IMG/VR virus record: IMGVR_UViG_3300028571_000142
Span: 1-21,747 of that record
Origin: a virus
Reading direction: 5' to 3' (one strand)
DNA: 21,747 nt
Numbering within the stretch: the first letter of the stretch is position 1; every line of letters begins with the position of its first letter. The notes beneath the pieces were generated by a model. The model was given only the letters and a program-made list of their open reading frames with translations, searched no databases and was not told where the DNA came from. This document shows positions 146-15,989 of the stretch, piece by piece. A program made the position numbers and the translations under genes.

Positions 146-3100
146 TTAGTATGTACCACCATCAATGGTGCTGTTCACTGTAAGTACAGAATCTCCCAGC
201 ACATACATACCATCAGCATAGACGTTTCCTGTGACACCTATGCCGCCAGCTACTCGCAATGCACCAGTGATGTTGCTGACGCTGATTGTGGTAGCCAAAA
301 TATTGGCAAATGTGTTTACTACCAAGGTTCCCACACTGGCAGTTGCCGATGTTACTAGGTTGCCAGCTGTAACGTTACCTGTGGCTGAAACCAGGCCTGA
401 AGTAATGATGTTGCCCGATACCACATTGGCTGTGATTGTGGCGTTGGCACCATTGATGTTGCCCACGGCGCTGACATTGCCAGTAACGTTGACGTTGCCT
501 GATGCAATGTTGCCAGTGACTGTGAGCAGGCCAGTGCTGATCACATTGGCACCAGTGATGTTGCCAGTTAGACTTAGGCTGGTACCTGTGGCAGCACCAA
601 TATTGGGCGTGGTCAAATTGGCTGATGCCTTGACCACAACGTTGCCGCCCACAATAGCCGTGGTATTGTTGTCTACGTTGACTGAGAACACTGTGCCAGT
701 CAGTGACAAGCCATTGCCAGCACTGTAAACTTGGCTGGCGCTGAACTGTGTAAACGTTAGGTTGTCATAGCCCAGTATGATTTCGCCCACAGGTGCTGTG
801 AGCACATAGCTTTCGCCTGCTCCGGTGTTGCCACTCTGTACAAAGAAATAATCGCCGGCATCTAGTCCGTTGATGCCGCTAGGCGCATAGGTATTTGTAT
901 CTGATGAACGTGTCATGATCCAGGGAGCAGACACATTACCAACATCAGTTACAACGTAAACACCGTTTTGATAAGCAGTTGTTTGGTTGTAAATCAACAC
1001 ACGCTGGTTAGAAGTCAGCGACACACCGTCAATTACCACAGCACCATTGACATTGGCAGTGAGTGTGGCGCCAACACCTGGGTTGGCTCTACCAACCTGA
1101 CTGAGTCCAGTGCCATTGGTTAGATTGGTAATCTGAGGACCGCCATAGATATTGGCCAGTGTGATCTGTGTGCCAGTCGGCGTTGAGAAAACAAAGTAAC
1201 TGGTGTTGGCAGTGATGCCGTTGAAACTGGCAGTCCAATAAATTTGATCATTCACATTCAAGCTGTGTGCTGATGAGAACGTCAGTGTGGTATTGCCAGT
1301 GATGTTAGTAACTGTGTGAGTAGTACCACCTTGAGCATAGGTAGCTGCCAGAGCTGTGGGAGATTCTACATACACTGGTGTGTGTATAACAATACCAGTT
1401 GACACAGCATCATCAACATACTGTTTGGTAGCTGCATCAAACGACTGAACTGGATTGGCCAGGTGATTGATATAGGTGTTGGCCAGGTGAATGTTACCTG
1501 ATGTAGGCCACAAATTGATGTCACCAGCACCAGTTGTCACTGTGAGAGAAGTGGCGCTGTTGATGTTGGGTGTAGTGACTACCCCGGCAGTGACAATGTT
1601 ACCACCAGTGACGTTACCAGTGGCTGTGATTAAGCCAACTGTGTTGAAATTTCCTGCTGTGACGTTGCCTGTGACAGTGACCAAACCAGCTGTGGCAATG
1701 TTGCCACCAGTGATGTTGCCTGTAGCACTGACTTGTTGACCAGCCAAAACATTGCCCGAGGTACTGATCTGGCCAGCACTCATCAAGTTGGTGATTGCAG
1801 CGTTGTTGGCCGACACGTTGCCAGTTATTGCTGCTGCGCCTGAAGTAACTAGATTACCACCTGTGATGTTGCCTGTTGCTGAAACCAGTCCGCCTGTTAA
1901 GAAATTGCCACCAGTGATGTTGCCAGCAGCAGTGATTAAGCCAGCTGTATCAACGTTGCCACCAGTGATGTTGCCTGTGGCTGATACTATGCCACCAGTT
2001 AATAGATTGCCACTGGTGGTATTTCCAGTTACCGAAGCTGAACCAGCTTGAACCAAACCGGCTGTGACCAAATTGCCACCAGTGATGTTGCCAGTGACAG
2101 TGGCCAAGCCTGCTGTGACCAAATTGCCACCAGTGATGTTGCCTGTGACAGTGGCCAAGCCGGCTGTGACCAAATTGCCACCAATCACGTTGCCCGCAAC
2201 CGATGCCAAACCAGCAGTGTTGATGTTGCCGCCTGTTACATTACCAGTTGCTGTGACTTCTCCAGCTGTGGAAACATTGCCGCCTATGACATTGCCCGAA
2301 GCGCTGACTGTGACGCCTTGAACCAAGGCATTGCCAATGACGTTACCGCCTGTGATGTTGGCAGTGGCAATGACTTGTCCAGCAGTGGTTATATTGCCAG
2401 CAATGACGTTGCCCGCAACCGATGCCAAACCAGCAGTATTGATATTAGCACCAGTGATGTTACCAGTTACTGTGGCATAACCCGCAACTACAGCATTGGC
2501 TCCAGTTACAATGTTGCCTGTGGCTGTGATTAAACCTGCTGTTACCAAGTTGCCACCAATCACATTGCCAATTGCACTGACAAAAGTGTTGGCTGTGACA
2601 GAATTTACTATAATGTTGCCGGTAACTTGGATATTGCCTACGTCAATATTGCCAACTACAGCGTTAACTGCAATAACATTGTTGCCTGAAAGGTTGCCTG
2701 TGGCACTGACATTACCAGCGGTGGCAATGTTACCGCCAGTGATGTTGCCTGTGGCTGTAACTAGTCCTGCTGTAATCAGATTAGCACCAGTGACATTACC
2801 ACCTGCTGAAGTTTGGCCAGCTGTGAGCAAATTGCCACCAGCAATGTTGGCTGTAACTGTTAAATTGCCTGTTATTGATCCTGTTCCAGTTACTTCAAGT
2901 GTGCCAATATTGGCCTTGCCAGCTGTAGTGACGTTGCCACCAGTTATATTGCCAGTTACACTACTGGTGCCAGTAACTGTGAGGATACTATTGGCACTGT
3001 CAAATGCCAAGTTGGCGCTGGCAGCAAAATCATCGCCTAGATTGAACTGAATCTCACCGTTGGCACCAGCAGCTTGTTGGAAATCAACTGGAGAGCCATT

Positions 3101-3943
3101 GGCATAATAATAGTTGTTGGTGAGTATACCACCAGCAGCAATGTTGCCTGCTGTGGAGATGTTGCCACCAGTGATGTTACCAGTTACCGTGGCATAACCC
3201 GCAACTACAGCATTGGCTCCAGTTACAATGTTGCCAGTGACAGTGGCATAACCTGCTGTGACTAAATTGGCTCCAGTTACAATGTTACCAGTTACCGTGG
3301 CATAACCCGCAACTACAGCATTGGCTCCAGTTACAATGTTGCCAGTGACAGTGGCCAAACCGGCTGTGACCAAATTGCCACCAGTGATGTTGCCAGCCAC
3401 GCTGGCCAGGCCAGCTGTGTTAAAGTTGGCGGCTGTGACATTTCCTGATACTGATTGCAGTCCAGTTACGTAGACTCCAGTGTTGGCAAACACTGCTACA
3501 TTGGGCGTTCCTGCTACTGTGATTGAAATGTTAGCACTGTTGGCAATTTCAATATTGCTTGTACCATTGCTTAGAGACGAAGTTGATATAGCAACGTTGG
3601 ATGCTGAAGTGATACGACCGTACTGATCTACTGTGAACACACCAATGTTGCTGGTAGGTCCTACTGATCCACCGTAGGTGCCTGCCGAAACGCCAGTTGA
3701 ACTCAGAGTCAGTGTTAAATTTGTAGTTCCGGTACCAGTGTTGACAGAATTGCCAGTAACGTTGCCCAAGACTTGAATGGGCTGGTTCTGTGTGAGCTCA
3801 AAAACGTTTGCAGTGCCAGTATCAACTTTGGTATAGAGACGACCATCATAAGTGTTGATAGCCAATTCGCCCAGTGCAAGGTTGCCTACCCCGGGCGCTG
3901 CACCGGACGTTGCTGAACGTTTGATTAACAGTGTATTTGACAT
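146..3943 (-). CDS. Giant repeat-built tail fibre / adhesin (1265 aa)
   Basis: Predicted structural adhesin of the virion tail. Residues 1-50 are an N-terminal attachment-like domain (LLIKRS...GELAINTYDGRLYTK). From about residue 155 to 795 the protein is dominated by imperfect 17-18-residue repeats of the form TGNITGGNLVTAGLAT or TGNIVTGANAVVAGYA, interrupted around 265-350 by a non-repeat segment. About 834-845 is AATKQYVDD, a motif common in phage fibres. About 955-1065 is a fold with GATLTANVNGAVVIDGV and QNGVYVVTDVG that recurs in fibre proteins. GN repeats then return, and the protein ends IDGGTY. The Gly/Asn/Thr composition with regular spacing suggests a beta-helical trimeric shaft (inference). 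A Shine-Dalgarno-like AAAAAGG precedes the ATG. It lies 12 nt after the 402-residue fibre gene, so the two are probably cotranscribed. The exact receptor and position on the virion cannot be read from sequence. Confidence 0.85.
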   Translation of the reverse strand: MSNTLLIKRSATSGAAPGVGNLALGELAINTYDGRLYTKVDTGTANVFELTQNQPIQVLGNVTGNSVNTGTGTTNLTLTLSSTGVSAGTYGGSVGPTSNIGVFTVDQYGRITSASNVAISTSSLSNGTSNIEIANSANISITVAGTPNVAVFANTGVYVTGLQSVSGNVTAANFNTAGLASVAGNITGGNLVTAGLATVTGNIVTGANAVVAGYATVTGNIVTGANLVTAGYATVTGNIVTGANAVVAGYATVTGNITGGNISTAGNIAAGGILTNNYYYANGSPVDFQQAAGANGEIQFNLGDDFAASANLAFDSANSILTVTGTSSVTGNITGGNVTTAGKANIGTLEVTGTGSITGNLTVTANIAGGNLLTAGQTSAGGNVTGANLITAGLVTATGNITGGNIATAGNVSATGNLSGNNVIAVNAVVGNIDVGNIQVTGNIIVNSVTANTFVSAIGNVIGGNLVTAGLITATGNIVTGANAVVAGYATVTGNITGANINTAGLASVAGNVIAGNITTAGQVIATANITGGNVIGNALVQGVTVSASGNVIGGNVSTAGEVTATGNVTGGNINTAGLASVAGNVIGGNLVTAGLATVTGNITGGNLVTAGLATVTGNITGGNLVTAGLVQAGSASVTGNTTSGNLLTGGIVSATGNITGGNVDTAGLITAAGNITGGNFLTGGLVSATGNITGGNLVTSGAAAITGNVSANNAAITNLMSAGQISTSGNVLAGQQVSATGNITGGNIATAGLVTVTGNVTAGNFNTVGLITATGNVTGGNIVTAGVVTTPNINSATSLTVTTGAGDINLWPTSGNIHLANTYINHLANPVQSFDAATKQYVDDAVSTGIVIHTPVYVESPTALAATYAQGGTTHTVTNITGNTTLTFSSAHSLNVNDQIYWTASFNGITANTSYFVFSTPTGTQITLANIYGGPQITNLTNGTGLSQVGRANPGVGATLTANVNGAVVIDGVSLTSNQRVLIYNQTTAYQNGVYVVTDVGNVSAPWIMTRSSDTNTYAPSGINGLDAGDYFFVQSGNTGAGESYVLTAPVGEIILGYDNLTFTQFSASQVYSAGNGLSLTGTVFSVNVDNNTTAIVGGNVVVKASANLTTPNIGAATGTSLSLTGNITGANVISTGLLTVTGNIASGNVNVTGNVSAVGNINGANATITANVVSGNIITSGLVSATGNVTAGNLVTSATASVGTLVVNTFANILATTISVSNITGALRVAGGIGVTGNVYADGMYVLGDSVLTVNSTIDGGTY
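1580..2430 (-). repeat. 51-bp tandem repeat array in giant fibre gene (main block)
   Basis: A run of 51-bp units encodes 17-residue TGNITGGNLVTAGLAT-type repeats. The clearest direct copies are 2066-2116 and 2117-2167, which differ at only a few bases; 2168-2218 is more diverged. Other units across the block are degenerate. Confidence 0.9.
3130..3470 (-). repeat. 51/54-bp tandem repeats in giant fibre gene (N-terminal block)
   Basis: Units of 51 and 54 bp encode TGNITGGN and TGNIVTGANAVVAGYA repeats. Copies starting near 3189 and 3243 are 54 bp apart. The unit at 3367 is close to the main block's 2066 unit, linking the two arrays. Confidence 0.85.
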
Positions 3944-3955
3944 AATTTTACCTTT

Positions 3956-5164
3956 TTAAAACGTCCCGCCATCAATTTGCTGGTCGTTGTTTGTCATTCT
4001 TATCCACGGGGTCCAGGATTCTCCCCAATAATTTCTCACAAACTGTATTTTGACATTGTCAAAATTGTCAATTGTGCCTGGGTAGTAGGTTTGAGTTACA
4101 GCAGCATTGCCCACAATGTTGCTGTTTTTGACTTCAAGCAATCCCACATACACCAAGCTATCCAGTGGGGGACCAGTTACACCACCCCAACTTGTTCTAT
4201 TTACCGTGTAAGTGCCCATTTGCAACAGCACGTTCCAGTTGGAAGTGTCGCCACCGCGGTTGACCATGGTCTCTGACAAGCCCACACCTGATCCCACAAA
4301 ACTACCACCTGACACCACATTGCCAACAACTGTCACACTGTTGGCAGTTTTATTAAAGGTAAATCCTGCAGATGCTGTGGCTACACCACTGTCGTTGAAC
4401 ACAACTCCGGTGTTGGCTCCAGAAATGCTGATGTTACCACTGATATTACCTACAAATGAGTTGGCAACGACAACGTTGGCGGTAACGTTGCCAGTAACAT
4501 CAACTGATCCAACGACTGTTAATCCTTGCTCAACATTTAACCCGTCTGCTATGTTGACAAAACTTGAATCATCAGACTTAATGTTGTTGGTCACAATCTG
4601 TGGTACTGTAACTGTGCCATTTACGTCAAGTCCTGCAGTAGTGAACTCAGCAACATTGACCGAATCAACTTCAACAAATATGTTGTCGTTGTCTGATGGA
4701 ATTGATACACTGCTGTTGCCGTTGTCAATTGACGAACCACCTGAAACTACAATTCCAGTTATAGCACGACCATTACCAACAAAATACCCCGAAGTTGTGA
4801 TATTACCTGGTGCATAGATTTCGCCACGAGCTTCAATATCATTGGCTACAACATCCCCATAAATGTCAAGACTAGAATTGACATTGCCAGCAATTGCCAA
4901 GTTGCCGCCAATGGTTGCATTACCAGTTGTGATGTTTGCTGATGTAACGTTGCCTGAAAAGACTGCATTGCCAGCAGTGACGTTGCCGGCACTGAACGTG
5001 GTAAAACTTCCTGCTGCCGGAGTGGTGTTGCCAATAACTATGCCGTTGATGGCTCCTTGCGGTTGCAGGCGCCATGCTTGGCCAGTCCAGATCCAAGACT
5101 TTCCAGAAAAAGTGTAAATTTCACCTGAGGTTGGGTTGGTTGGAAAATTTAAAGTTGATGGCAT
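3956..5164 (-). CDS. Tail fibre protein with C-terminal pyocin-knob-like domain (402 aa)
   Basis: Predicted tail fibre. The N-terminus (SGEIYTFSGKSWIWTGQAWR) looks like a short capping domain. It is followed by INGIVIGNTTPAAGSFTTFS, a motif seen in many phage fibres, then GN-rich repeats similar to those of its neighbours up to about residue 290. The last ~105 residues, starting near MVNRGGDTSNWNVLLQMGTY and including YYPGTIDNFDNVKIQFVRNY and WTPWIRM, resemble the pyocin knob domain found at the tips of R-pyocin and phage fibres, a probable receptor-facing head. The protein ends IDGGTF, nearly the same tail as the 1265-residue neighbour (IDGGTY). The ATG has no Shine-Dalgarno sequence but sits 6 nt after a CTAAATA late-promoter-like element, suggesting a nearly leaderless late mRNA. 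Confidence 0.82.
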   Translation of the reverse strand: MPSTLNFPTNPTSGEIYTFSGKSWIWTGQAWRLQPQGAINGIVIGNTTPAAGSFTTFSAGNVTAGNAVFSGNVTSANITTGNATIGGNLAIAGNVNSSLDIYGDVVANDIEARGEIYAPGNITTSGYFVGNGRAITGIVVSGGSSIDNGNSSVSIPSDNDNIFVEVDSVNVAEFTTAGLDVNGTVTVPQIVTNNIKSDDSSFVNIADGLNVEQGLTVVGSVDVTGNVTANVVVANSFVGNISGNISISGANTGVVFNDSGVATASAGFTFNKTANSVTVVGNVVSGGSFVGSGVGLSETMVNRGGDTSNWNVLLQMGTYTVNRTSWGGVTGPPLDSLVYVGLLEVKNSNIVGNAAVTQTYYPGTIDNFDNVKIQFVRNYWGESWTPWIRMTNNDQQIDGGTF

Positions 5165-5170
5165 AGTGAA

Positions 5171-5177
5171 TATTTAG
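5171..5177 (-). promoter_or_regulatory. T4-type late promoter-like element (CTAAATA)
   Basis: The minus strand reads CTAAATA, sharing the TAAATA core of the T4 late promoter TATAAATA. Only 6 nt separate it from the ATG of the 402-residue fibre gene. With the T4 spacing (+1 about six bases after the final A), transcription would start one base before the start codon. No Shine-Dalgarno sequence is present. Confidence 0.55.
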
Positions 5178-5183
5178 TGGAAA

Positions 5184-5879
5184 TCATGCTGGTGTAATTG
5201 ACGCCAACCCATTGGTGTTTCTCCACATTGAAGTTGGAGTGGACCCTGTGGCCACATAAATGGTCCAGTTGTCGGTGCTGACTACTACTCGACCAAGCAC
5301 TTTTCCAGTGGTGTTGACTATGGCAGCGGCATTGCCAATTGTGGCATTTGATGCTGTGTCCAGCACAGAGGTTGCTGCTGGAGAACTAAAACTTTGATAC
5401 GCCTCCATTTCAGCCCACTGATTGCTAGTGTTGTCATTGAAATAAATGTACTGCACACCAGTGTCACTTTCAATCCAGACATCACCAATGTTGGCTGGGT
5501 TTGGGGCAAACTGGCTGAATGTGACTTGACTGCCACCGCCACCTGAAATACCAGTTAAAAATGCTCCGTTGCCGTAGAAGTATTGAGCACGTATACTACC
5601 AAACAGCTTGTCTGGAGTACCAAGATCATACACCCCGCTGATACCTGGGTTTATGGTGCTGTTGACTTGAATATTGCCAATTCCATTGGCCTGTAATATC
5701 AGTTCGTTGTTATAGCCCCGGACTGTGACGGTGTTGTTGGCAATGACAACATTGCTATCTACTGGTCCTGATGACCAAATTGCCGTGAAATTGTTGTTTA
5801 CTGCATCAAATGCAGCACGTAGAGATTCGCCTGTGCCGTCATTGGCCACTAGGCCTGTGTTAATTATTTGTTGAGTCAT
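5184..5879 (-). CDS. Short tail fibre / virion structural protein (231 aa)
   Basis: Predicted virion structural protein of the fibre module. It opens with IINTGLVANDGTGESLRAAF followed by DAVNNNFTAIW, a signature N-terminal motif widespread in structural proteins of T4-like marine phages. Residues ~40-110 contain beta-rich segments (NNTVTVRGYNNELILQANG, GVYDLGTPDKLFGSIRAQYF, FLTGISGGGGS) of the kind that precede fibre tips. The C-terminal half (PNPANIGDVWIESDTGVQY and following) looks like a small globular beta domain. AGGGA lies 5 nt before the ATG and AAGGA a little further upstream, and a GTAAATA late-promoter-like element lies 21 nt upstream. The gene sits between two repeat fibres on the same strand and lacks their long repeat shaft. 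It may be a chaperone, adaptor or short fibre; sequence does not separate these. Confidence 0.75.
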   Translation of the reverse strand: MTQQIINTGLVANDGTGESLRAAFDAVNNNFTAIWSSGPVDSNVVIANNTVTVRGYNNELILQANGIGNIQVNSTINPGISGVYDLGTPDKLFGSIRAQYFYGNGAFLTGISGGGGSQVTFSQFAPNPANIGDVWIESDTGVQYIYFNDNTSNQWAEMEAYQSFSSPAATSVLDTASNATIGNAAAIVNTTGKVLGRVVVSTDNWTIYVATGSTPTSMWRNTNGLASITPA

Positions 5880-5921: not shown

Positions 5922-8573
5922 TTATGCTTGCCCCACTACAATTTCAATTACACCAGTTGAGCCTGAAAAATCAGCCAGTGCTTTGCCAATAATGGTGCCT
6001 GGCAAAGGGGTTGATTCTGATCGAGCAACGCCGTTGCCAGCCGACACCAACAAATCGCCTTTGGCAACTGAGCCCTGAATTTTGCAGGGCACACGTCCGG
6101 CCAAGGCCACAATTGCCACGTGTTCAGCTTGTAGAACTGAGTTCATGATAAAACTGGGGTTTTCTGATATCACTCCAGCAACTCGGTGATCTCCATCTAT
6201 GGCTGATACTGTGACTTCTTTTTCACCGCCAAATACCACCACAGTACCTGTTTCGTAACGTGCATCTGCTTCGTACAATTCTGCCAAGTCGGCGTATTGC
6301 GCCGATGTGGCCTTGGCAAATATGGTGTTGAACCCATTTGTAGCATTGCCGATGTTGCCAGTGCCGTTGGTACTGCCATTGATGATGTTGTTCACAGTGA
6401 TGGTACCAGTGCCCACACTAAGGTTACCACCTGTGATGTTGCCTGATGCACTAACTGTGGTGCCAGTTAAGTTGCCAACAATGGCACCAATAAGGTTACC
6501 ACCTGTGATGTTGCCTGATGCACTAACTGTGGTGCCAGTTAAGTTGCCAACAATGGTACCAATAAGGTTACCACCTGTGATGTTGCCGGTTGCTGAAATC
6601 AATCCACCTGTTAGAATATTACCACCAGTGACGTTGCCACTGAGTGATGCTGTAGTGCCTGTATGCGTGGTGGCATTGACGTTGGCGCCACCTAAGATGT
6701 TACCACCAGTGATGTTGCCTGTTACAGATACTGAGTTCAATGTACCCACACTGGTGATGTTGGGTTGTGCATTAGTGGTCACAGTACCAGCTGTGGTAGC
6801 TGATTCAGCTGATCCAGAACTGACTGCATAAGTAGCATTGGCCACAGTGCCTGACACGTTGCCACCAGCAATATCTGACAGCCCGGCGCCTGAACCATAA
6901 TATGCAGCAGCAGTGATGTTGCCCGATGCACTGACACGCCCAACGTTGACGTTACCGGTGCCATTTGGGGTGAGTACGATGTTGGCGTTGGCAGCAGTGG
7001 TTTGAATATCCAGCTGTGCCGAATCAAGTATGGCGCCTGAAATCAGTAAATTGCCAGATGTGACGTTGCCGGTACTTACGCTCAAACTGCCACCAGTGAT
7101 TGCACCAGTTACAGACACCGAGCTCAAAGTGCCCACTGAGGTAATATTGGGTTGTGCGGCTGTTGTGACTGTGCCTGCTGTAGTGGCTGATCCAGCACTG
7201 ACTGCATAAGTGGCATTGGCCACAGTGCCCGACACATTGCCACCAGGAATATTAGTCAGCCCTGAACCTGAACCAAAAAAGTTTGCCGCAGTGACATTGC
7301 CAGCAGCTGATACTAATCCAGCAGTGGTTACATTGCCTGCAATCACATTGCCTGTTACTGAGTTAAGCCCAGTTACGGTAATACCCACATCGGACAACAC
7401 CCATACGTTGGATATGCCATTTACTGCACCAGTGATGTTGCCGTTGGTTTGAGAAACTGCCAACAATGATGTACCATTGGCAATTTGAGTAACCGCCACG
7501 TTGCTGGTCGCAGTAACGTTGGACAAAAATCCGCCATCGCCTACAAAGTATTTGCCAGCTTGGACTGTGACGTTGCCAGTTGATGACACTGCGCCAGCTG
7601 CCACCGTGCCCAGAGTGGTAATATTTCCACCAGTTACTGTGCCTGTTGCCGACACTGCACTGGTGGTATAAACGTTGCCAGCATTGATGTCTGAATTTGC
7701 TGTCACATACGCCGCAACTATATTTCCAGTTAAACTTAAAGAAGTGCCCAAGTATCCAACAGCTGATACGTTGTCACCAGTGATGTTGCCTGTGGCTGAA
7801 ATCAGGCCACCTGTCAGAATGTTTCCACCTGTGACGTTGCCACTTAATGATGCTGTGGTGCCTGTGTGTGTGGTGGCATTGACATTGGCACCACCTAGAA
7901 TATTGCCACCTGTGATGTTGCCAGTTGCCGAAATCAAGCCAGCAGTGAGTATGTTACCACCTGTGACGTTGCCACTTAATGATGCTGTGGTGCCTGTATG
8001 CGTAGTGGCATTGACATTGGCTCCACCTAGAATATTGCCACCCGTGATGTTGCCTGTAGCTGAAATCAAGCCAGCCGTTAATATATTGCCAGCCGTTGCG
8101 TTGCCGGTAGCACTGATTAATCCACCAGTTAATAAGTTGCCACCTGTGACGTTGCCACTAAGTGATGCTGTGGTGCCTGTGTGTGTGGTGGCATTGACAT
8201 TGGCGCCACCTAGAATATTACCACCTGTGATGTTGCCAGTTGCCGAAATCAAGCCAGCAGTGAGTATGTTACCACCTGTGACGTTGCCGGTGGCACTGAT
8301 CAATCCTGTGACATATTCTCCAGTAGTGGCCCAGACCACCACATTGCCTGTACCACCAATTCCCACTGTGACATTGCCGCTAGAGGTGGCCACGTCGACG
8401 TTGCTGGTACCGTTGAAAATTCGAGTAACACTGATGTTACCAGCAATACTAGTGTTGCCCGAAATTGACAAGTCGCCTGTAACGACCACTGTGGTGGATT
8501 GCAAGGTAATTAAATTACCTGCTCCTAGAGTTTGGATAGTGTAATCGCCGGCGACACGTTTAACGGTTGACAT
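5922..8573 (-). CDS. Large repeat-built tail fibre with conserved C-terminal domain (883 aa)
   Basis: Predicted tail fibre. After ~85 N-terminal residues, the shaft is made of GN repeats organised into 44-residue super-repeats (GNITGGNILGGANVNATTHT, then GTTASLSGNVTGGN, then ILTAGLISAT), with near-identical copies. Two longer copies of a segment with SGTVANATYAV and AQPNITSVGTL, common in fibres of environmental phages, lie in the middle, and two 24-residue repeats (NLIGAIVGNLTGTTVSASG) precede the end. The last ~128 residues (from about 756, SAQYADLAELYEADARYETG, through VVVFGGEKEVTV and HRVAGVISENP) form a non-repeat domain. Its ADLAE...V.G...V..I.GV.S..P layout loosely recalls the C-terminal autoproteolytic or chaperone domains of phage appendages (Peptidase_G2-like); this is weak and no catalytic residue was assigned. 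AAGGA precedes the ATG, which abuts the stop codon of the upstream gene. Confidence 0.85.
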   Translation of the reverse strand: MSTVKRVAGDYTIQTLGAGNLITLQSTTVVVTGDLSISGNTSIAGNISVTRIFNGTSNVDVATSSGNVTVGIGGTGNVVVWATTGEYVTGLISATGNVTGGNILTAGLISATGNITGGNILGGANVNATTHTGTTASLSGNVTGGNLLTGGLISATGNATAGNILTAGLISATGNITGGNILGGANVNATTHTGTTASLSGNVTGGNILTAGLISATGNITGGNILGGANVNATTHTGTTASLSGNVTGGNILTGGLISATGNITGDNVSAVGYLGTSLSLTGNIVAAYVTANSDINAGNVYTTSAVSATGTVTGGNITTLGTVAAGAVSSTGNVTVQAGKYFVGDGGFLSNVTATSNVAVTQIANGTSLLAVSQTNGNITGAVNGISNVWVLSDVGITVTGLNSVTGNVIAGNVTTAGLVSAAGNVTAANFFGSGSGLTNIPGGNVSGTVANATYAVSAGSATTAGTVTTAAQPNITSVGTLSSVSVTGAITGGSLSVSTGNVTSGNLLISGAILDSAQLDIQTTAANANIVLTPNGTGNVNVGRVSASGNITAAAYYGSGAGLSDIAGGNVSGTVANATYAVSSGSAESATTAGTVTTNAQPNITSVGTLNSVSVTGNITGGNILGGANVNATTHTGTTASLSGNVTGGNILTGGLISATGNITGGNLIGTIVGNLTGTTVSASGNITGGNLIGAIVGNLTGTTVSASGNITGGNLSVGTGTITVNNIINGSTNGTGNIGNATNGFNTIFAKATSAQYADLAELYEADARYETGTVVVFGGEKEVTVSAIDGDHRVAGVISENPSFIMNSVLQAEHVAIVALAGRVPCKIQGSVAKGDLLVSAGNGVARSESTPLPGTIIGKALADFSGSTGVIEIVVGQA
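6420..6563 (-). repeat. Two tandem 72-bp repeats in fibre gene
   Basis: Units at 6420-6491 and 6492-6563 are almost identical, and a partial third unit begins at 6564. They encode 24-residue units (NLIGAIVGNLTGTTVSASG core) just before the C-terminal domain of the 883-residue fibre. Confidence 0.9.
6622..8272 (-). repeat. 132-bp super-repeats in fibre gene (four near-identical copies)
   Basis: Near-identical units begin at 6622, 7825, 7957 and 8140. The 7825 and 7957 copies are directly tandem (132 bp apart), and 8140 follows after 183 bp, which is 132 plus one 51-bp unit. Each encodes a 44-residue block with the distinctive ANVNATTHTGTTASLSGN core. High DNA identity between copies makes unequal recombination plausible. 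Confidence 0.88.
6720..7270 (-). repeat. Direct repeat of a ~190-bp fibre segment
   Basis: Two similar blocks, about 6720-6905 and 7080-7270, both encode a VTGAITGG-like or VTGNITGG-like unit, AQPNITSVGTL, TAGTVTT and SGTVANATYAV. The copies diverge more at the DNA level than the 132-bp repeats nearby, so this is an older duplication. One copy has a small in-frame insertion (SAESATTAG versus SATTAG). Confidence 0.75.
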
Positions 8574-9161
8574 TTAGAGTTCCTTTGTGTTATTTATTCG
8601 GTTTAGAAAGTCTTCCATTTGCATGTTGGCCATGTTTTTTATCTTGTACAGCTCAGGTATGTCAGCAGTGGTGTTACCAAACACACGAAAAAAGTTGGTG
8701 TTGGGAAAATCTCCAGCCACAGTTTTTAGTTGGCGTGCCCAGTTGCCAGTGTATGTGGGAACATCTGCACTTTTCTTGTAAAATTCAGTGTCAGCATAGC
8801 AGTTGTTGAATTTGCCAGTGGCAGTGGGTCCCATGTCAAATCCCAAGAGATACACTGCTCGATTACCGGCCAAGGCTGCTAGAGCCACTGCAATTGGTCC
8901 TGAACTGAATCCGTAATATTGCTGTGGCACTGGTTTTGCTGCCAAGTGCGGCAGAGGTTTTCTGGTGTAAAACTCATGTTGTTTTGCATACCCTGAATGC
9001 TGAATCTGTTCGCTGATGGGACGATCTGTACTGACCAAGACATCTGGTGCAAATTCACGATACAAAGCATTACAACCATACACAGGCCCTAGCCCTTGCA
9101 GCGTGGCTATATTGACTGCTTGACGACTAACACCGTTGCCCAAAACAAATGCTCTACTCAT
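8574..9161 (-). CDS. DUF115/MAF-like Rossmann protein, possible glycan-related enzyme (195 aa)
   Basis: Probably a nucleotide-sugar or pterin-type enzyme of the DUF115/MptE/sialyltransferase-like fold group; this is a family guess from motifs, not a firm match. Visible features are an N-terminal strand-loop LGNGVSR (residues 7-13), YGCNALYR (28-35), VSTDRP (43-48), SSGPIA (86-91) and a hydrophobic strand VYLLGFDMG (103-111). In that group the GNGxS loop, the N-ally-R region, the D at the end of a strand and the late LLGxD motif mark the ligand pocket. There is no signal peptide or membrane segment. The gene is embedded between a virion structural gene and the fibre cluster on the same strand, suggesting late expression and a role in decorating fibres or host surface sugars. 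GGGAGGA precedes the ATG but lies inside a stable hairpin. The stop codon abuts the next start. Confidence 0.65.
   Translation of the reverse strand: MSRAFVLGNGVSRQAVNIATLQGLGPVYGCNALYREFAPDVLVSTDRPISEQIQHSGYAKQHEFYTRKPLPHLAAKPVPQQYYGFSSGPIAVALAALAGNRAVYLLGFDMGPTATGKFNNCYADTEFYKKSADVPTYTGNWARQLKTVAGDFPNTNFFRVFGNTTADIPELYKIKNMANMQMEDFLNRINNTKEL
8591..8598 (-). promoter_or_regulatory. T4-type late promoter-like element (AATAAATA)
   Basis: The minus strand reads AATAAATA, matching seven of eight positions of TATAAATA. It lies 17 nt upstream of the 883-residue fibre start, inside the last codons of the preceding gene, and the leader would carry AAAGGA as ribosome binding site. Confidence 0.6.
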
Positions 9162-9166
9162 AGAAA

Positions 9167-9193
9167 ATCCTCCCTGTATGTACCAAGGAGGAT
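9167..9193 (-). promoter_or_regulatory. Hairpin sequestering ribosome binding site / possible terminator
   Basis: On the minus strand ATCCTCCTTG pairs with CAGGGAGGAT (10 bp with one T-G wobble) around a 7-nt loop GTACATA, followed by TTTTCT and then the ATG of the 195-residue gene 5 nt from the stem. The GGGAGG ribosome binding site is wholly in the 3' arm. The T-run after the stem means it could also act as an attenuator or terminator for the upstream structural gene, whose stop codon is about 18 nt away. Confidence 0.75.
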
Positions 9194-9210
9194 CCCAGTG
9201 CTAGATTAAA

Positions 9211-10032
9211 TTAGCTTGTGACTTTGTCAACTTGAGCCAATTGCAAGCTGCCGTTTTGAGCTTCAGCACCTGCAATGATTTCAGCGCCGGACCATGTGAC
9301 GGTGCCTTCATCAGTGAAGAAGTTCACAGGATAGAAGTTTTCGCTAGATTGCACGTTGGTACCAAGATTGCTGTCACTGTAATTGCCGTAGGTCATGCCA
9401 TTCCAGTCACGCACCCACTTATTGGTGATGTAGCTGGCATACACAGCAGAGCTGTCGCCTACTGAGTAAGAAATACTCATGAAGCCGGCTGCAGGAGTAG
9501 CGGTATTGGACAGTACACATTGTCCAACAGGATATGCTGTGCCTGTACCTGAACCCACTGCTGTGGCTGTGAATACATCACCCAATGCATAATCTACACC
9601 GGCGCCGCAAGCAGCCCAGTCGGTTGTTCCAACTGAGGCAATTTGATATGCCTGACCCACAATCAAAGACTCATCAGCTGTGGCAGCAGCAGTGTAAGCT
9701 ACCAAGAACTTGTGTGAACCTTTTTGTCGAATAATGCGGCCAGCTCCTGAAGTTGTACTGGTACCATCTGACAAACTGATGTTGACCACGGCAGCAATTT
9801 CTGGAAATGTTGTTGTTGGAGTTGAAGTTGCTGGAGAACCACCCACCACGCCCAGAAAATCTGTGTCGCTGAGTGTGTTGGCACTGTTGTAAACTGGATT
9901 GGTCAAGCTACCAAAGTTGGGGTAACCTGCATCAGTGAGAACGGTTTGATTGTATGTGGTCACTGGTGGTGTGCCACTAACGACGGTTCCAGAACCAACG
10001 TTGTTTTTTTGAATTTTGAGAGCTCTTCCCAT
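9211..10032 (-). CDS. Virion structural protein with SVGTTDW module (273 aa)
   Basis: Predicted virion structural protein. The start MGRALKIQKNNVGSG followed by GYPNFGSLTNPVYNS and DFLGVVGG is a recurrent pattern in structural proteins of T4-like environmental phages. Residues ~114-169 carry a module with GQAYQIASVGTTDW, GDVFTATAVGSGTG and a flanking QCVLSN segment, which recurs across unrelated phage structural proteins and looks like an inserted beta-sandwich domain. The C-terminal part (WVRDWNGMTYGNYSDSN, YPVNFFTDEGTVTWSG) is beta-rich. A clear AAGGAG precedes the ATG. It heads the tail-fibre transcription unit, with a long leader of about 80 nt containing a stem-loop and an upstream CTAAATA element. 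The precise location in the virion is unknown. Confidence 0.75.
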   Translation of the reverse strand: MGRALKIQKNNVGSGTVVSGTPPVTTYNQTVLTDAGYPNFGSLTNPVYNSANTLSDTDFLGVVGGSPATSTPTTTFPEIAAVVNISLSDGTSTTSGAGRIIRQKGSHKFLVAYTAAATADESLIVGQAYQIASVGTTDWAACGAGVDYALGDVFTATAVGSGTGTAYPVGQCVLSNTATPAAGFMSISYSVGDSSAVYASYITNKWVRDWNGMTYGNYSDSNLGTNVQSSENFYPVNFFTDEGTVTWSGAEIIAGAEAQNGSLQLAQVDKVTS

Positions 10033-10095
10033 TTGATTTCTCCTTATAGAAGCCCAATGCGGGTTCTAGCCGCTACGCAGGGGTTGGCTGCATAA

Positions 10096-10111
10096 GTCGC
10101 CCTATTGCGAC
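10096..10111 (-). promoter_or_regulatory. 5'-leader stem-loop (ATAGG loop), copy A
   Basis: The minus strand reads GTCGC-AATAGG-GCGAC, a perfect 5-bp stem with a 6-nt loop. Its first base falls six nt after the CTAAATA element, exactly where T4 late transcription would start, so the mRNA may begin with the hairpin. A related hairpin lies at 11724-11742. Confidence 0.6.
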
Positions 10112-10116
10112 AAGTG

Positions 10117-10172: not shown

Positions 10173-11321
10173 ATGGACATCAACTACCTCATCGACCAAG
10201 GCAATCAGCATCGGTCAAACCATGAACCCGAACAAGCCCTGCATTGTTATGCCATGGCATTTGTAAGTGACCGTAATTCTGCTGCGGCATTCAACAACTA
10301 TGGCAATGTACTGAGAGAAATTGGCCAACCCAGGCGTGCTGTGCCGTTTTTACAGAACGCAATTGAGCTTGATCCCAACAATATCACAGCGAGGTTTAAT
10401 CTAGCAGTGGCATATTTGCTCATGGGCGACTATGCCAATGGTTGGCCAGCATACGAAACTCGTTGGCAATACGAGCACTTGGCCGGAACCGAACCACAGT
10501 TCTCACAACCCAGATGGCGTGGCGAAGACCTCAAGGGCAAAACAGTATTGGTTGTGGGCGAACAAGGTCACGGTGATAACATTCAGTTTGTGAGATTTGT
10601 GTACAACCTGCATGTCATGGGAGCTAGAATCAAACTGCAAGTAACAGATGGATTGATACCACTGTTGCTCAACAGTGCTATCATTGAAAAAGTGGGAAGC
10701 TATGTTGATGACATGGGAGAATTTGATTACTGGGTTCCCATCATGAGTCTACCAGGAATCTTGGGCGTGACTCTTAATCGGTTGACCAGCACTGTGAGTT
10801 ATCTCAATGTGCCCGACACAGTGTCTCAAGAATGGACTCGGCGTCTAGGCGCCAAAACACGCATGCGAGTGGGCATCAGCTGGAGTGGACGCAGAGATTC
10901 ATGGTTGAATCAACACAAGTCAGTTCCGTTTCCAACAGTGCTGGAAATGATTCGAAACAATCCACAATATGAGTGGATCAACTTGCAGGCTGATGCCAGT
11001 GATGATGAAGTTGTTGCATTACAGGATGCCGGGGTAACCATGTTTCCCGGCGCTGTTAACAACTTCTTGGACACTGCCGGGCTCATGAATCAACTGGACG
11101 TTGTGATTGGAGTTGACACCGCGGTGAGTCACCTGGCAGGTGCACTGGGTCGTTCCACTTGGATCATGCTCAATAACTATGCCACAGACTGGCGTTGGTT
11201 GTTGGATCGCGACAGTTCACCTTGGTATGGAACTGTGAGACTGTTCCGTCAACCTGCCATGGGAGATTGGACAAGTGTAACCAAAAAGGTTACCCAATAT
11301 CTGTCTTGGTTCAAGGTATAA
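10173..11321 (+). CDS. TPR-repeat glycosyltransferase (GT9/heptosyltransferase-like)
   Basis: Predicted cytoplasmic glycosyltransferase fused to TPRs, 382 residues. Residues ~5-100 form about three tetratricopeptide repeats (HEPEQALHCYAMAF, AAFNNYGNVLREIGQPRRAV, ITARFNLAVAYLLMGDYANG), a likely protein-binding arm. From ~120 a GT-B-like catalytic part follows: GEQGHGDNIQF (129-139), GISWSGR (234-240), GVDTAVSHLAGALG (313-326) and DWRWLLDRDSSPWY (339-352). The GVDT.vsHLAGALG block matches the donor-binding region of ADP-heptose-type GT9 enzymes found in TPR-GT proteins of bacteria. The frame is open upstream to a GTG at 10125, but the ATG at 10173 is preferred because it sits just before the TPRs and 5 nt after a GTAAATA element. 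It is the only complete plus-strand gene, standing between the head and fibre modules. Acceptor unknown: virion protein or host glycan. Confidence 0.85.
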   Translation: MDINYLIDQGNQHRSNHEPEQALHCYAMAFVSDRNSAAAFNNYGNVLREIGQPRRAVPFLQNAIELDPNNITARFNLAVAYLLMGDYANGWPAYETRWQYEHLAGTEPQFSQPRWRGEDLKGKTVLVVGEQGHGDNIQFVRFVYNLHVMGARIKLQVTDGLIPLLLNSAIIEKVGSYVDDMGEFDYWVPIMSLPGILGVTLNRLTSTVSYLNVPDTVSQEWTRRLGAKTRMRVGISWSGRRDSWLNQHKSVPFPTVLEMIRNNPQYEWINLQADASDDEVVALQDAGVTMFPGAVNNFLDTAGLMNQLDVVIGVDTAVSHLAGALGRSTWIMLNNYATDWRWLLDRDSSPWYGTVRLFRQPAMGDWTSVTKKVTQYLSWFKV

Positions 11322-11841: not shown

Positions 11842-13038
11842 TTAGCTGAAAGACAAGTTCGACACAGCGATTTCACCAACGTAGTCGCCAGCGTTGCCAA
11901 AGCTGCTAGCAGTGTTGGTCAATTCGATGTAACCATAACGTGTCATGAATGACACCACTGGTTCGAATGTTGTTGGATCCAGAACAACACCGCTGCTCAT
12001 CAATGGAATGTATGGGCAGTAGAATGCTGGAGCGTCAGCTTCGCTTGAACCTTTGTAACCAACCAATACTGGTGTGGTGTCTTGGGCGTAGCTGTCAACA
12101 AACACGCGGAGTGAACCGTTCAATGTACCAACAAACTTGGTGTTTGTAGGAGCTTCAAATGTGCCTTCTGTAGTGCGAGCAAAAGCACTAGTTGTTGCAC
12201 TTTGCAACACTGTCAATGCAGCAGAGCTAACCACAGCGTAGTTACCGGCGCCACGACGTGTGCGTTGGGCGATCAAGTTAGCAACACGGTTGATCAAAAC
12301 AGCCAAAGCGGCGTGTTCGTCACCAACGAATGTAGCTGTACCTGAAACGGTAGCTTGGTTGTATGTAAACTCAGTAGCAGCCAAAGAACGCAGGCTGAGA
12401 AGGATTTCTTGGTCAATCTCAGCGGTAATTTCTTGGGCCAGTGCTGCCATGATTTCTGCTTCAACGTCAATACCATGCATGGCTTGTGCGTCTTGTGCAG
12501 ATTCAAATGTCCAACGTGCTTGCAATTTGCGAGTCTTGGCTTCAACAGCTTGCTTCAAGATTTGAACGCTGATTTGCTTACCGCCAGTACCTTCCATGGT
12601 AGCTGTAGCAGCACCAGTATAATTGGTAGCTGTTGCAGTAGCCTGGGGCACTGTAGAATATGCAGTAGCGATCTTGAATGGGCTCAAGGCTTCTTCACCA
12701 GCTGTTACCGAAGTAGCAGCCAGGCTGTTGTCAGTCAAGCTCTGTGCATAGCGAACACGCAGAGTGTGGATTTGACCAACTGGACCAGTCATGGGCTGAA
12801 CGCCAACCAACTCGTTAGCAATAACGGTGGGCATTACACGACGGATAACTGGAAGAATCACACGGTTCAAAGTTGCAACGTTACCGGCAACTGTGGAACC
12901 TGCTGAAGCATTTTCTTTCAGATACTTGCGAGTGTTCTCGAGGATAACACCCATGCTGTTGCGCTTAGAGCCGTTCAGACCTTCAAGCAGAGCTTCTTTG
13001 GTCTCGCCCCAGCGACTTTCTAGTAGTTCTTGTGACAT
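11842..13038 (-). CDS. 23: Major capsid protein (T4 gp23-like)
   Basis: Major capsid protein of the HK97 fold, assembling into the icosahedral prohead on the gp22/gp67 core. Recognisable from MSQELLESRW, LNRVILPVIRRVMPTVIANE, LVGVQPMTGPVGQIHTLRVR and QITAEIDQEILLSLR, typical of gp23 in T4-like environmental phages, and from its position directly after the scaffold gene. At 398 residues it is clearly shorter than T4 gp23 (521) and many cyanophage homologues, suggesting loss of the insertion domain. A candidate gp21 maturation site is YLKE|NAS after Glu42, fitting the (L/I)xE preference of T4 prohead protease; this is inference. AGGAG sits 6 nt before the ATG. There is no good late element immediately upstream (only TTATAAAATC across the gp22 stop), so it may depend on operon transcription. 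Confidence 0.96.
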   Translation of the reverse strand: MSQELLESRWGETKEALLEGLNGSKRNSMGVILENTRKYLKENASAGSTVAGNVATLNRVILPVIRRVMPTVIANELVGVQPMTGPVGQIHTLRVRYAQSLTDNSLAATSVTAGEEALSPFKIATAYSTVPQATATATNYTGAATATMEGTGGKQISVQILKQAVEAKTRKLQARWTFESAQDAQAMHGIDVEAEIMAALAQEITAEIDQEILLSLRSLAATEFTYNQATVSGTATFVGDEHAALAVLINRVANLIAQRTRRGAGNYAVVSSAALTVLQSATTSAFARTTEGTFEAPTNTKFVGTLNGSLRVFVDSYAQDTTPVLVGYKGSSEADAPAFYCPYIPLMSSGVVLDPTTFEPVVSFMTRYGYIELTNTASSFGNAGDYVGEIAVSNLSFS

Positions 13039-13059
13039 TTAAGTCTCCTAAAAAAGATT

Positions 13060-14157
13060 TTATAACCCTGCCAGACGCTTGAGGTCGATCACGTTGCTCT
13101 TGGCTTCGTTTTCGTCCTGCTGATGACTTGGGACAGTTTTATCTCCTGTGACTGAGGTGACGCTCTCTGCAATTACCTTGGGGGCTTTTGCAGTTCGATT
13201 CTCCAGAACAGCCGGTAGATACTTTTCAAAAGCGTTCTTCAAACGAGTTGTTTGAACGCTTTCCAGTAAATTACGCATGACATCTTGCTTTTCCCGGTTC
13301 AAGGGACGCAATAGGTCAGTCATGAGTTCATTACGCTCGTTGCTTTCCTTGATGATACGTAGTTCACGTTCTTTACTCTCGACCAGGGTCTTAGCCTGCA
13401 CGCCGAGCTTGATGGCTTTCGCCAATTGTTGTTGCTTGCTTTCGATAACTTGGTGCAATTTACGAACTTCGGCTTTCTCATTGAGATGAGTAGCGCCAAA
13501 TTCAGCTGCATAAGCTTCAAAAATACGACGACCAAAACTGTTCTCGCGAGCAATTTTAATATCTTCGTGCAATTGAGTGAGTTCAGTCTTGAGATGCTGG
13601 CTAACAGCTCGGCTCATTTTGGCTGAAGATTCTTTTACGAACTTAGCCTTGAGAGATTCCAACTTGCTGCGGGCTTCACTTACCAGGCGGACCTTAGTCT
13701 CAACCACGGCACGCTTGTCTGCGGCAAATTCTTGAATTTCTCGAGCCAATGCATGCACCACGAAGTTTTCTAGTTTTCCTAGTCCTTCACTGTGCATTTT
13801 ACGATCCTTGCGCAATTCGCCAATTTCCTCGGCAAGTTTGGTCACCATAAAGTTGTTGAACTTTGTAGCTGACTCTTTCATCTTGCTTTGAAACTTGACG
13901 CGATCTTCTGCCAATGCTTGCTTTTCAGCAGCCATACTGGCAATTTCTGCGCTTAAACCTTCTGTAACCATGCGATCCAGGGCTTCCACCATCACTTGCT
14001 TGTCGTGTTCGTAGCGGTGCGCAAACTCTTCACGTAGTTCGGCACGAGCCTGTTCACGAGCTTCACTTAGCTTGGCTTCCCAAGCTTCGTTGATCTCTTG
14101 GCGAGTTTCCTCGGTGATCAGGTTGCTATCTAGCAATGGTTTGATTGCATCTAACAT
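13060..14157 (-). CDS. 22: Prohead scaffold protein (T4 gp22-like)
   Basis: Main core (scaffold) protein around which the capsid forms, degraded by gp21 during maturation. At 365 residues the protein is almost entirely charged helix: MLDAIKPLLDSNLITEETRQ, then long Lys/Glu/Arg/Ala-rich coiled-coil stretches from about residue 20 to 285, and a less structured Lys/Pro/Val-rich tail. The family is recognised by the N-terminal LL.SNLITEETRQEINEAWE segment and by its place between protease and capsid genes, as in T4. It is larger than T4 gp22 (269), as is usual in environmental relatives. AAGGAG precedes the ATG. It is transcribed with gp21 and gp23 with gaps of 13 and 21 nt. Confidence 0.93.
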   Translation of the reverse strand: MLDAIKPLLDSNLITEETRQEINEAWEAKLSEAREQARAELREEFAHRYEHDKQVMVEALDRMVTEGLSAEIASMAAEKQALAEDRVKFQSKMKESATKFNNFMVTKLAEEIGELRKDRKMHSEGLGKLENFVVHALAREIQEFAADKRAVVETKVRLVSEARSKLESLKAKFVKESSAKMSRAVSQHLKTELTQLHEDIKIARENSFGRRIFEAYAAEFGATHLNEKAEVRKLHQVIESKQQQLAKAIKLGVQAKTLVESKERELRIIKESNERNELMTDLLRPLNREKQDVMRNLLESVQTTRLKNAFEKYLPAVLENRTAKAPKVIAESVTSVTGDKTVPSHQQDENEAKSNVIDLKRLAGL

Positions 14158-14170
14158 TAGTAGATTCTCC

Positions 14171-14806
14171 TTAGATTTTGAGTTCCTTGATGAGCTTGAC
14201 TACTTCGCTCTTCAAGTATCTCTGCACTTTGTTGTCCTGACCAGCTTCTCGGGCTACTTCAAGTAATCTATGTCCGTAGTTCATGTTCATGAGACTTTCA
14301 TAAATTGCCTTGGGGTATGCATTTGGGGCACTGGGCTGGGCAACCACATCAATCGTGACTATTTCAAAGTCACTGACATGTCCGGTTCTATCGTCAACGT
14401 TACCACTGCCTCGGCTTGAAACACCTAGACGTACACCTGATTGCAGCAAGGTTTTAACAAGATTACCCATTGGAGTAGGTAACACCTTGAGCTTGCCGCA
14501 ACCGGCATCACCGTCCATCCACATTTCTTCAACACTATGGCAAACACGATCTAGATTGACTTTGAGATCATCTGGATGGTCCACTTCACCTAGTACAGAG
14601 TATCCTTCTTGGATCTGTTTGTTGATAGTGCCAACAGCTCGAGTGATTTCGTTTAATGGGTAAACACGCTCATTTGCATTGCGTTTGTTTCCCTCGATAC
14701 ATATCCCTTTGAGATACATGCTTTTACCCTGGCCGGATGCATCAGCTTCTTCAAGAACCTGCATGCGAGCCTGATTAAAAGTAAGTTGTTCTCTTAGGGT
14801 TTTCAT
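14171..14806 (-). CDS. 21: Prohead core protease (T4 gp21-like, peptidase S77)
   Basis: Serine protease that cleaves scaffold, core and capsid proteins inside the prohead. With the ATG at 14806 (211 residues, MKTLREQLTF) the visible motifs are NERVYPLNEI, GEVDHP with the likely catalytic His at ~77, GVSSRGSG with candidate Ser at ~130-131, and the following DFEIVTIDVVAQPSAP segment. This His/Ser layout is that of the T4 prohead protease family. An in-frame TTG six bases upstream is possible but unlikely. No strong Shine-Dalgarno sequence is visible; the gene begins immediately after the TGA of the gp67-like gene, so translation is probably coupled. Ile/Leu-x-Glu sites in its neighbours fit its specificity. 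Confidence 0.95.
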   Translation of the reverse strand: MKTLREQLTFNQARMQVLEEADASGQGKSMYLKGICIEGNKRNANERVYPLNEITRAVGTINKQIQEGYSVLGEVDHPDDLKVNLDRVCHSVEEMWMDGDAGCGKLKVLPTPMGNLVKTLLQSGVRLGVSSRGSGNVDDRTGHVSDFEIVTIDVVAQPSAPNAYPKAIYESLMNMNYGHRLLEVAREAGQDNKVQRYLKSEVVKLIKELKI

Positions 14807-14808
14807 AA

Positions 14809-15669
14809 TCAATTATGCTTGCTTGGGATGATAGACTTGGTGTTAACACCAGTAGCTTGGCTCAAGTGTGGCTTGGTAGCAGGCGTTTGGCCTTTCATGC
14901 TAGCACCAGCTTTGTTCTGAAAATCACCAATCAAGTCTTTGGTTGAGTTGCTGTATGCGCTAGAGTCATGCTTGCCACCCATTTCGCCGCCAGTGTGTAC
15001 CGGACGAACTGTGCTGCCAATTGGACCCTTGGCGCCAGCGTTTGCGGCCACAGTAGACTTCTTGTTGATGCCGCCTTCTTCAGAAGTCACTGGCTTTGGG
15101 GCTGCTTTTAGCGTCACCGCTTCCATCATGCCGCCGCCAAACTCGTCAGTCATTTCTTCAGTGTCGTCCATTTCAATGGCGTCACCACCTTCTTCAGCGC
15201 CAAATCCGTCGCCGTTGCCGCCAACATCATCACCGCCCATTAATCCTTCAAACTCGGCCATCAACTGGTCCAGTTTGTCTTCAAGATTCATGATGTCGTC
15301 TTTGGTAGCTGTTTCTCCGCTGCCACCCATGTCATCGCCGCCGACATCTTGTTCGTCGTCAGCATCGATATCAAATTCTTCTTCTTCGTCGCCTTCAGCT
15401 TCCATGCTCATGTTGTCTTGCTCTTCAGCTTCAACATCATCAATCAAGTCATCACTAGCGTCGCCGCCCATCATGCCTTCTTCAATGTCTTCTTCAGCTT
15501 CGTCAAGCTCTTCGTCTGCGCCTTCTTCTAGATCTTCCTGGGCTTCTTCGGCCATTAGATTTTCGTAGATTTGGCGGCTTTTTTCCACAACGATGTCATG
15601 GAAAAGTTCTTGGGCTTTCGCCTCTTCGTCGTTGATCACGTATTCGATCAATTGTTCAAAACGGTTCAT
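14809..15669 (-). CDS. Acidic prohead core protein (T4 gp67-like, extended)
   Basis: Likely internal prohead core protein. It sits in the slot occupied by gp67 and gp68 in T4, between portal and protease. The N-terminal helix (FEQLIEYVINDEEAKAQELF, then EKSRQIYENLM) resembles the start of T4 gp67, and as in gp67 it is followed by a strongly acidic tract (residues ~40-180, rich in Glu, Asp and Gly). At 286 residues it is far longer than T4 gp67 (~80). The C-terminal ~100 residues are polar and net basic (KPVTSEEGGINKKS, GEMGGKHDSSAYSN), perhaps a fused or analogous core segment, since no separate gp68 is seen. AGGAG precedes the ATG, and a GTAAATA element is 33 nt upstream. The gp67 assignment is inference from position, helix and acidity. 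Confidence 0.7.
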   Translation of the reverse strand: MNRFEQLIEYVINDEEAKAQELFHDIVVEKSRQIYENLMAEEAQEDLEEGADEELDEAEEDIEEGMMGGDASDDLIDDVEAEEQDNMSMEAEGDEEEEFDIDADDEQDVGGDDMGGSGETATKDDIMNLEDKLDQLMAEFEGLMGGDDVGGNGDGFGAEEGGDAIEMDDTEEMTDEFGGGMMEAVTLKAAPKPVTSEEGGINKKSTVAANAGAKGPIGSTVRPVHTGGEMGGKHDSSAYSNSTKDLIGDFQNKAGASMKGQTPATKPHLSQATGVNTKSIIPSKHN

Positions 15670-15702
15670 ATAAGAAAACTCCTATTAGGTAAAGTGCGTT
15701 GT

Positions 15703-15709
15703 TATTTAC
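15703..15709 (-). promoter_or_regulatory. T4-type late promoter-like element (GTAAATA)
   Basis: GTGTAAATA on the minus strand, 33 nt before the gp67-like start. The predicted leader of ~28 nt contains AGGAG. Just upstream is a short ATAGA/TCTAT inverted repeat at 15713-15727 of doubtful meaning. Confidence 0.5.
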
Positions 15710-15765
15710 ACCATAGACTAAATCTATAGTGTTTATCGGCAGAAAATGGCAATAAATGCCAGAAA

Positions 15766-15984
15766 TTACACCGCAGGTTGTGCAGGAGGGGAGTATTGTT
15801 GACGCACCAGCTTGAGTTTTTCTTTGTACTCAACCATGCGAACATCATTCATTTTGCGCAGTTTGTTGAGCTGACGCAAGGTAAGGCGACTCTTGCGTAG
15901 GTCGCCTAGACGGGCTTGACTGTTGTCTTTTTCAACGTCTTGATATGCCTTGGGCTCTTTGTCCCAGAATTCTCGTAGTATCAT
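15766..15984 (-). CDS. Small conserved charged protein between portal and core genes (72 aa)
   Basis: Function unknown. The sequence (MILREFWDKEPKAYQDVEKD, RLGDLRKSRLTLRQLNKLRK, MNDVRMVEYKEKLKLVRQQY, then a Pro/Ala tail) is highly charged and mostly helical, with a basic central segment. Similar short proteins sit next to gp20 in T4-like environmental phages as far as I recall. T4 itself has no gene in this exact slot apart from gp67/gp68, which are acidic, so this is not gp67. Its Arg/Lys-rich helix could contact the portal, the acidic core or DNA (speculation). The ATG lies 9 nt after the portal stop, lacks a Shine-Dalgarno sequence and follows a CATAAATA element by 5 nt. Confidence 0.75.
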   Translation of the reverse strand: MILREFWDKEPKAYQDVEKDNSQARLGDLRKSRLTLRQLNKLRKMNDVRMVEYKEKLKLVRQQYSPPAQPAV

Positions 15985-15989
15985 GTCAA

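Follow-up and report, generated by a model that had tools for sequence, protein, structure and literature searches.

A predicted minimal Maf/GT42-superfamily domain encoded among the virion genes of T4-like aquatic phages

We report on GT42L (a working name), a gene of uncultured T4-like aquatic phages whose product is predicted to be a minimal domain of the Maf/GT42 superfamily and which, with a probability that we put at about one half, acts as a glycosyltransferase on one of the virion proteins. The gene was studied in a 21.7-kb IMG/VR virus record, the whole of which was analysed and is referred to here as the window (Table 1). The enzyme-like fold of the protein, coupled with the fixed place of its gene among virion genes, suggests that the T4-like aquatic phages with GT42L probably attach sugars to their own particles.

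Table 1. Position of GT42L and of the surrounding genes and RNA elements in the window.
Feature	Position	Strand	Remarks
T4-like head genes (gp20 portal, orf72, orf286, gp21 protease, gp22-like, gp23 capsid)	11842..17774	-	gp20, gp21 and gp23 by Pfam and PHROG; context
TPR + GT9-like glycosyltransferase	10173..11321	+	divergent strand; frequent, not obligatory neighbour
freshwater-2 RNA (RF02980)	10030..10112	-	ORF273 leader; 75.3 bits, E 3.7e-10
ORF273	9211..10032	-	conserved, all-beta, Ser/Thr-rich (23%); virion-like, candidate acceptor
Hairpin in the 49-nt ORF273-GT42L gap	9162..9210	-	terminator-like, ribosome-site-masking
GT42L (Maf/GT42-superfamily gene)	8574..9161	-	195 aa; ORF, conserved family, AF2 model, fold matches, purifying selection
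First repeat fibre gene	5922..8573	-	883 aa; ATG abuts GT42L stop; C-terminal PHROG tail-fibre match
Further fibre-like ORFs (5184-5879, 3956-5164, 146-3943)	146..5879	-	

The open reading frame had been delimited exactly in an earlier sequence-only reading of this DNA, and the four motifs quoted there (LGNGVSR, YGCNALYR, VSTDRP and VYLLGFDMG) all occur in the translation and hold many of the residues that are invariant in the family. The start codon is the ATG at 9161, with a Shine-Dalgarno sequence, GGAGG, a few nucleotides 5' of it. Relatives were found in 114 viral contigs with a single-sequence query and in at least 591 with a profile search; a 343-kb record carries one that is 95% identical. 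Close pairs show dN of 0.007-0.066 at dS of 0.14-1.0, a dN/dS of about 0.03-0.09 and typically near 0.05; GT42L is under purifying selection and is a real gene, more than a chance reading frame. An alignment of 33 members, the most distant 41% identical to the window protein, has 32 invariant positions out of 195. Only three records of annotated phages match, none closely and two of them from the same phage; these are the Pelagibacter phages HTVC008M and Mosig, where the proteins are annotated 'hypothetical protein' and the neighbouring genes are non-structural. The cultured HTVC008M (L082) has two relatives, at 752-1309 and 4180-4983, near genes for a carbamoyltransferase and phytanoyl-CoA-type dioxygenases. 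A family-profile scan of genome contigs found no bacterial relatives, and a literature search found no paper combining DUF115, phage and glycosyltransferase.

An AlphaFold2 model built from the family alignment forms a single domain (pLDDT 89.9, pTM 0.89). Its top structural match in VIA-align is to residues 272-517 of Maf (5mu5; Z 12.6, rmsd 4.0, 169 residues aligned), followed by CstII (1ro7, Z 10.3), an archaeal MptE-type HPPK (8sd5, Z 9.2), thiamin pyrophosphokinase (3lm8, Z 8.5), a Pasteurella GT42 enzyme (Z 8.3), SteA (Z 8.2) and human sialyltransferases (Z 7.6), while unrelated folds reach a Z of at most 6.9. A Foldseek search of the PDB at E<=0.001 gave CstII as the sole match (1ro8, E 6.2e-4), and at the same threshold BFVD yielded 23 viral models, nearly all of them uncharacterised, unnamed or called MptE-like/DUF115. 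When searched against PDB sequences, the family profile found nine matches, all GT42 enzymes (best E 0.0059). Structure and profile thus bear out the earlier suggestion of a Rossmann-like nucleotide-binding enzyme fold with DUF115/Maf and GT42 kin, the central domain of the Maf flagellin glycosyltransferase being the best match and CstII/GT42 the next.

The model has the GT-A variant-1 fold with a lid seen in GT42, the fold of the Maf_flag10 domain, and also that of the MptE-type HPPK/TPK pyrophosphokinases. An enzyme of this last branch, or another nucleotide enzyme, would be in keeping with the two pyrophosphokinase matches (Z 9.2 and 8.5) and with the weak matches of 11 GT42L members to the Pfam MptE-like family; we consider it highly improbable, as the profile matches in the PDB are to GT42 only, and Maf and CstII align over 169-174 residues, at higher Z, against 120-131 for the pyrophosphokinases. 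The sequence-based family definitions are less accommodating than the fold. The cut-off of Pfam PF06002 (CST-I, GT42) was not reached by any member, with matches in 5 of the 33 (best E 0.0043), nor was it passed in any of 20 large records; that of PF01973 (Maf/DUF115) was not reached either, the window protein scoring 12.1 bits against a required 34.6 and 11 of the 33 members matching at E<=1 (best E 0.017). The N- and C-terminal domains that surround the catalytic domain in Maf are absent from the 195-residue, single-domain model. PHROG 4603, named 'alpha-2,3-sialyltransferase', matches 31 of the 33 members over residues 72-150 only, and PHROG 30607, a longer profile (296 positions) to which no function is assigned, matches all 33 and is probably the same family. 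On the strength of its modelled fold, GT42L belongs to the Maf/GT42 superfamily; by the narrower tests it is a member of neither family.

The residues of the predicted active site tell a similar story. With hhalign, only short local matches emerged against Maf domains of bacteria and a single GT42 homologue, and a joint MAFFT alignment put the DUF115 insert in the wrong place, so residues beyond the PDB profile alignment were mapped by eye. Within that alignment (hmmsearch), G8-N9-G10-x-S12 and C30-N31 match CstII residues 8-12 and 30-31 without a gap, S86-S87-G88 pairs with T131-S132-G133, and G107-x-D109 with G152-x-D154; the GT42 nucleotide-binding motifs GNGxS, CN, (T/S)SG and GxD are therefore all present, and all are invariant in the family alignment. 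Motifs of the form P-D-hhh-(S/A)-x-D and GFD(L/M) are, by eye, common to GT42L and Maf. Many invariant residues lie directly after strands 1-5 of the model (3-7, 27-30, 41-44, 63-66 and 102-106) or within the loop formed by residues 113-141, and a comparable lid covers the donor site of CstII (PMC8433944). In the model, this placement of invariant polar residues at the strand ends, with a lid-like loop, is as expected of a nucleotide-sugar active site.

The general base of GT42 enzymes is His188 in CstII (PMC4202792), and we looked for a counterpart of this residue, or of His202 in CstI. No conserved histidine matches CstII His188: no column of the alignment has His in more than 13 of the 33 members and none is invariant. 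The position of CstII Tyr156 is occupied by Gly, and an invariant N140-W141 stands, as mapped by eye, where the His188 counterpart might be expected. GT42 membership in the narrow sense founders on the missing histidine and the unreached Pfam cut-off. The absence of the histidine would also suit a protein that keeps the sugar-nucleotide fold without catalysis and whose role towards fibre or head proteins is that of assembly chaperone or binding partner, much as the cell-division regulator SteA (Z 8.2) uses this fold, and the fibre operon of some genomes ends with a divergent second copy without the GFD aspartate. Non-catalytic paralogues usually lose their pocket residues, as this second copy did, whereas D46, D109 and the lid residues of GT42L are invariant across 33 diverse members, and we regard a non-catalytic role as quite unlikely.

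On its minus strand the window runs from the T4-like head genes through ORF273 and GT42L to four fibre-like repeat ORFs; the term 'purely structural operon', applied to it previously, is fair for these genes; the TPR-glycosyltransferase lies on the opposite strand. The relatives form two clades, for which 'freshwater' and 'marine' serve here as working names suggested by the relatives that turned up, and not as a tested habitat split. Loci of the freshwater clade have, in succession, ORF273, a gap usually of 45-52 nt, GT42L and a fibre gene, with ORF273 always directly upstream of GT42L and the fibre ATG usually abutting the GT42L stop codon. GT42L directly follows 205 of the 220 ORF273 copies that have 500 nt downstream, a set in which some contigs are counted twice and the copies are not independent; 13 of the 15 exceptions are distant copies from the marine clade, and the other two have GT42L close by, outside the distance rule. 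The mostly marine sister clade has GT42L within the head cluster, between portal/orf72 and orf286/gp21 protease (between orf72 and orf286 in 56 loci, between gp20 and orf286 in 14 more), and has ORF273-like and fibre-like genes after gp23 without GT42L there. The link to adhesins drawn in the sequence-only reading consequently holds strictly for the fibre operon of the freshwater clade and fails in the marine clade, where GT42L lies away from the fibres. The GT42L and gp23 trees show the same two-clade split with full support; GT42L has been inherited with the capsid gene. Each of 21 large records, picked because they carry GT42L, has one full-length copy, and six have in addition the divergent second copy. 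In the two genomes examined for it (L335:6427-7101, minus strand; L336:11854-12519, plus strand) this paralogue lies at the fibre operon's far end, its GNG and GFD motifs are degraded and the GFD aspartate is lost.

An enzyme of the same class could instead modify the host surface (LPS or capsule), blocking superinfection or keeping progeny from binding to debris, and be made late because it is needed late. GT42 enzymes do act on lipooligosaccharide (PMC4202792), the TPR-GT9 neighbour is heptosyltransferase-like, and the HTVC008M relatives lie near the carbamoyltransferase and dioxygenase genes. We nevertheless think this unlikely, given a position fixed among virion genes in two clades and a spacing to the fibre gene that is near zero.

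The gap between ORF273 and GT42L encodes a hairpin whose 5' arm begins ATCCTCC and whose 3' arm, GGGAGGAT, is the GT42L Shine-Dalgarno sequence, followed by TTTTCT and the ATG. It was present in all freshwater-clade ORF273-GT42L gaps examined, with the consensus AUCCUCCCAG-CUACAUA-CUGGGAGGAU-U6-AUG, in which the U-tract gives it a terminator-like character. In 33 sequences, 93% of cells are paired and 38 changes affect both sides of the stem, against 12.9 in shuffles, none of 500 of which scored as high; sliding the alignment abolishes this covariation signal. A covariance model scores a single strong copy, of 49 bits, in the window and places the hairpin directly 5' of GT42L in 36 of 43 loci, the seven without it being outside the freshwater clade; for the marine clade and the isolates the same model gave no convincing match. 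The hairpin may hold the enzyme at a low level next to a virion protein that is abundant. Its loop, UA-x-x-UA, is nearly invariant and could be a protein-binding site. The second RNA element of this region, the freshwater-2 RNA, occurs at the same place in all seven relatives compared, a location that links an orphan RNA motif with a cluster of structural genes in T4-like phages.

Proximity in the genome does not by itself point to one acceptor. Among the candidates ORF273 comes first, being present in both clades; it lies near gp23 in each, and GT42L lies beside the fibre gene in one only, which makes ORF273, or a head protein, no worse a candidate than the fibre. ORF273 has no Pfam, PHROG or PDB match, and its model is of low confidence (pLDDT 71), with no PDB match above Z 4.1. 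Members of its family, which is widespread after gp23, begin MGR[AP]LKIxK. The first fibre has 45 N-X-S/T sequons where shuffling predicts 22, an excess that follows from its TGN(I/V)TGGN repeat unit and does not speak for N-glycosylation. We likewise rejected the conserved C-terminal K(D/E)L of GT42L as a protein motif: the AAGGA Shine-Dalgarno sequence of the first fibre gene sits inside the C-terminal K-E-L codons, with which the motif coincides, and the motif is usually lost where no fibre start abuts.

The fibre genes that were expected to co-occur with GT42L do adjoin it in the freshwater clade, and the TPR-glycosyltransferase, of which the same was expected, is often absent. Of 150 loci containing GT42L, some of them incomplete, 92 have it, and it is missing from several complete gp23-ORF273 intervals, which rules out an obligatory pairing; the two-gene glycan system proposed earlier does not fit the many loci whose complete intervals lack this gene. 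In one contig (L052:3482-4240, plus strand) the gp23-ORF273 slot that holds the TPR-glycosyltransferase in other genomes is occupied by an ORF that starts LHMFEKNNPVLISMPRCGSTVTGKML and looks sulfotransferase-like by eye. Searches of 20 large phage records for CMP-sugar synthetase (PF02348) and NeuB (PF03102) were empty, with positive controls, and we discarded a phage-encoded sialic-acid pathway; NTP_transferase was found in none of 15 large phage records, and NDP-sugar epimerases in 12 of 15. Since none of the three was found, a donor from the host would be required. The missing catalytic histidine, together with a CMP-nonulosonate pathway that was not found in the 20 records, leaves the name 'sialyltransferase' unsupported.

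These observations suggest a model for the activity of GT42L as a virion glycosyltransferase. The protein would represent the catalytic domain of the Maf (DUF115)/GT42 glycosyltransferase superfamily in minimal form and on its own. It would be made late, alongside the virion proteins, in small amounts governed by the hairpin acting as terminator or on the ribosome site. The sugar nucleotide would be held at the C-terminal edge of the parallel sheet by G8-N9-G10, N31, D46, S86-S87 and D109, under a flexible lid contributed by N119-N120, Y128, T136 and G139-N140-W141. Most likely a virion protein would then receive one sugar on Ser/Thr (or Asn), either ahead of assembly or in the course of it, with ORF273 as first candidate acceptor and the fibre proteins as second; the benefit to the phage may lie in shielding the particle or in tuning adsorption.

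The proposed activity has parallels in known systems. The Maf_flag10 domain is linked to Cst-II, and Maf O-glycosylates Ser/Thr of a polymeric surface protein (PMC11339370). GT42L shares its fold over 169 residues (PF01973, 5mu5) and adjoins the gene of a polymeric surface-structure protein, as Maf adjoins flagellin; it is a lone 195-residue domain among phage virion genes, whereas Maf is a three-domain protein encoded among flagellar genes. With CstI and CstII (PF06002) it has in common the GNGxS, CN, (T/S)SG and GxD motifs and a lid-like loop, and it differs from them in the absence of the His188 base, the Gly at Tyr156 and a score below the Pfam cut-off. Mycobacteriophage virions are glycosylated by phage-encoded glycosyltransferases (Freeman 2023, as cited in PMC12619734), and a sugar on phage structural proteins, observed there, is the outcome proposed here for different phages. 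Jumbo aquatic phages have been reported with several core glycosyltransferases (PMC12619734). New here are a Maf-type domain of minimal size, a place among the virion genes that is fixed in each of two clades, and a dedicated RNA element.

In its fullest form, which we advance tentatively and hold to be more doubtful than the virion role itself, our proposal is that GT42L belongs to the core virion genes of a large group of T4-like aquatic phages, all uncultured, that it has moved once between head cluster and fibre operon, and that, dosed by the hairpin, it O-glycosylates ORF273 or the fibres, virion glycosylation being a basal trait of the group. GT42L would also offer a very small Maf/GT42-type domain for studies of catalysis without the usual histidine. 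Sugar has been observed on the particles of few phages, and with GT42L at a fixed place in the virion gene clusters of hundreds of T4-like phage contigs, freshwater and marine, virion glycosylation could be tested on a large scale.
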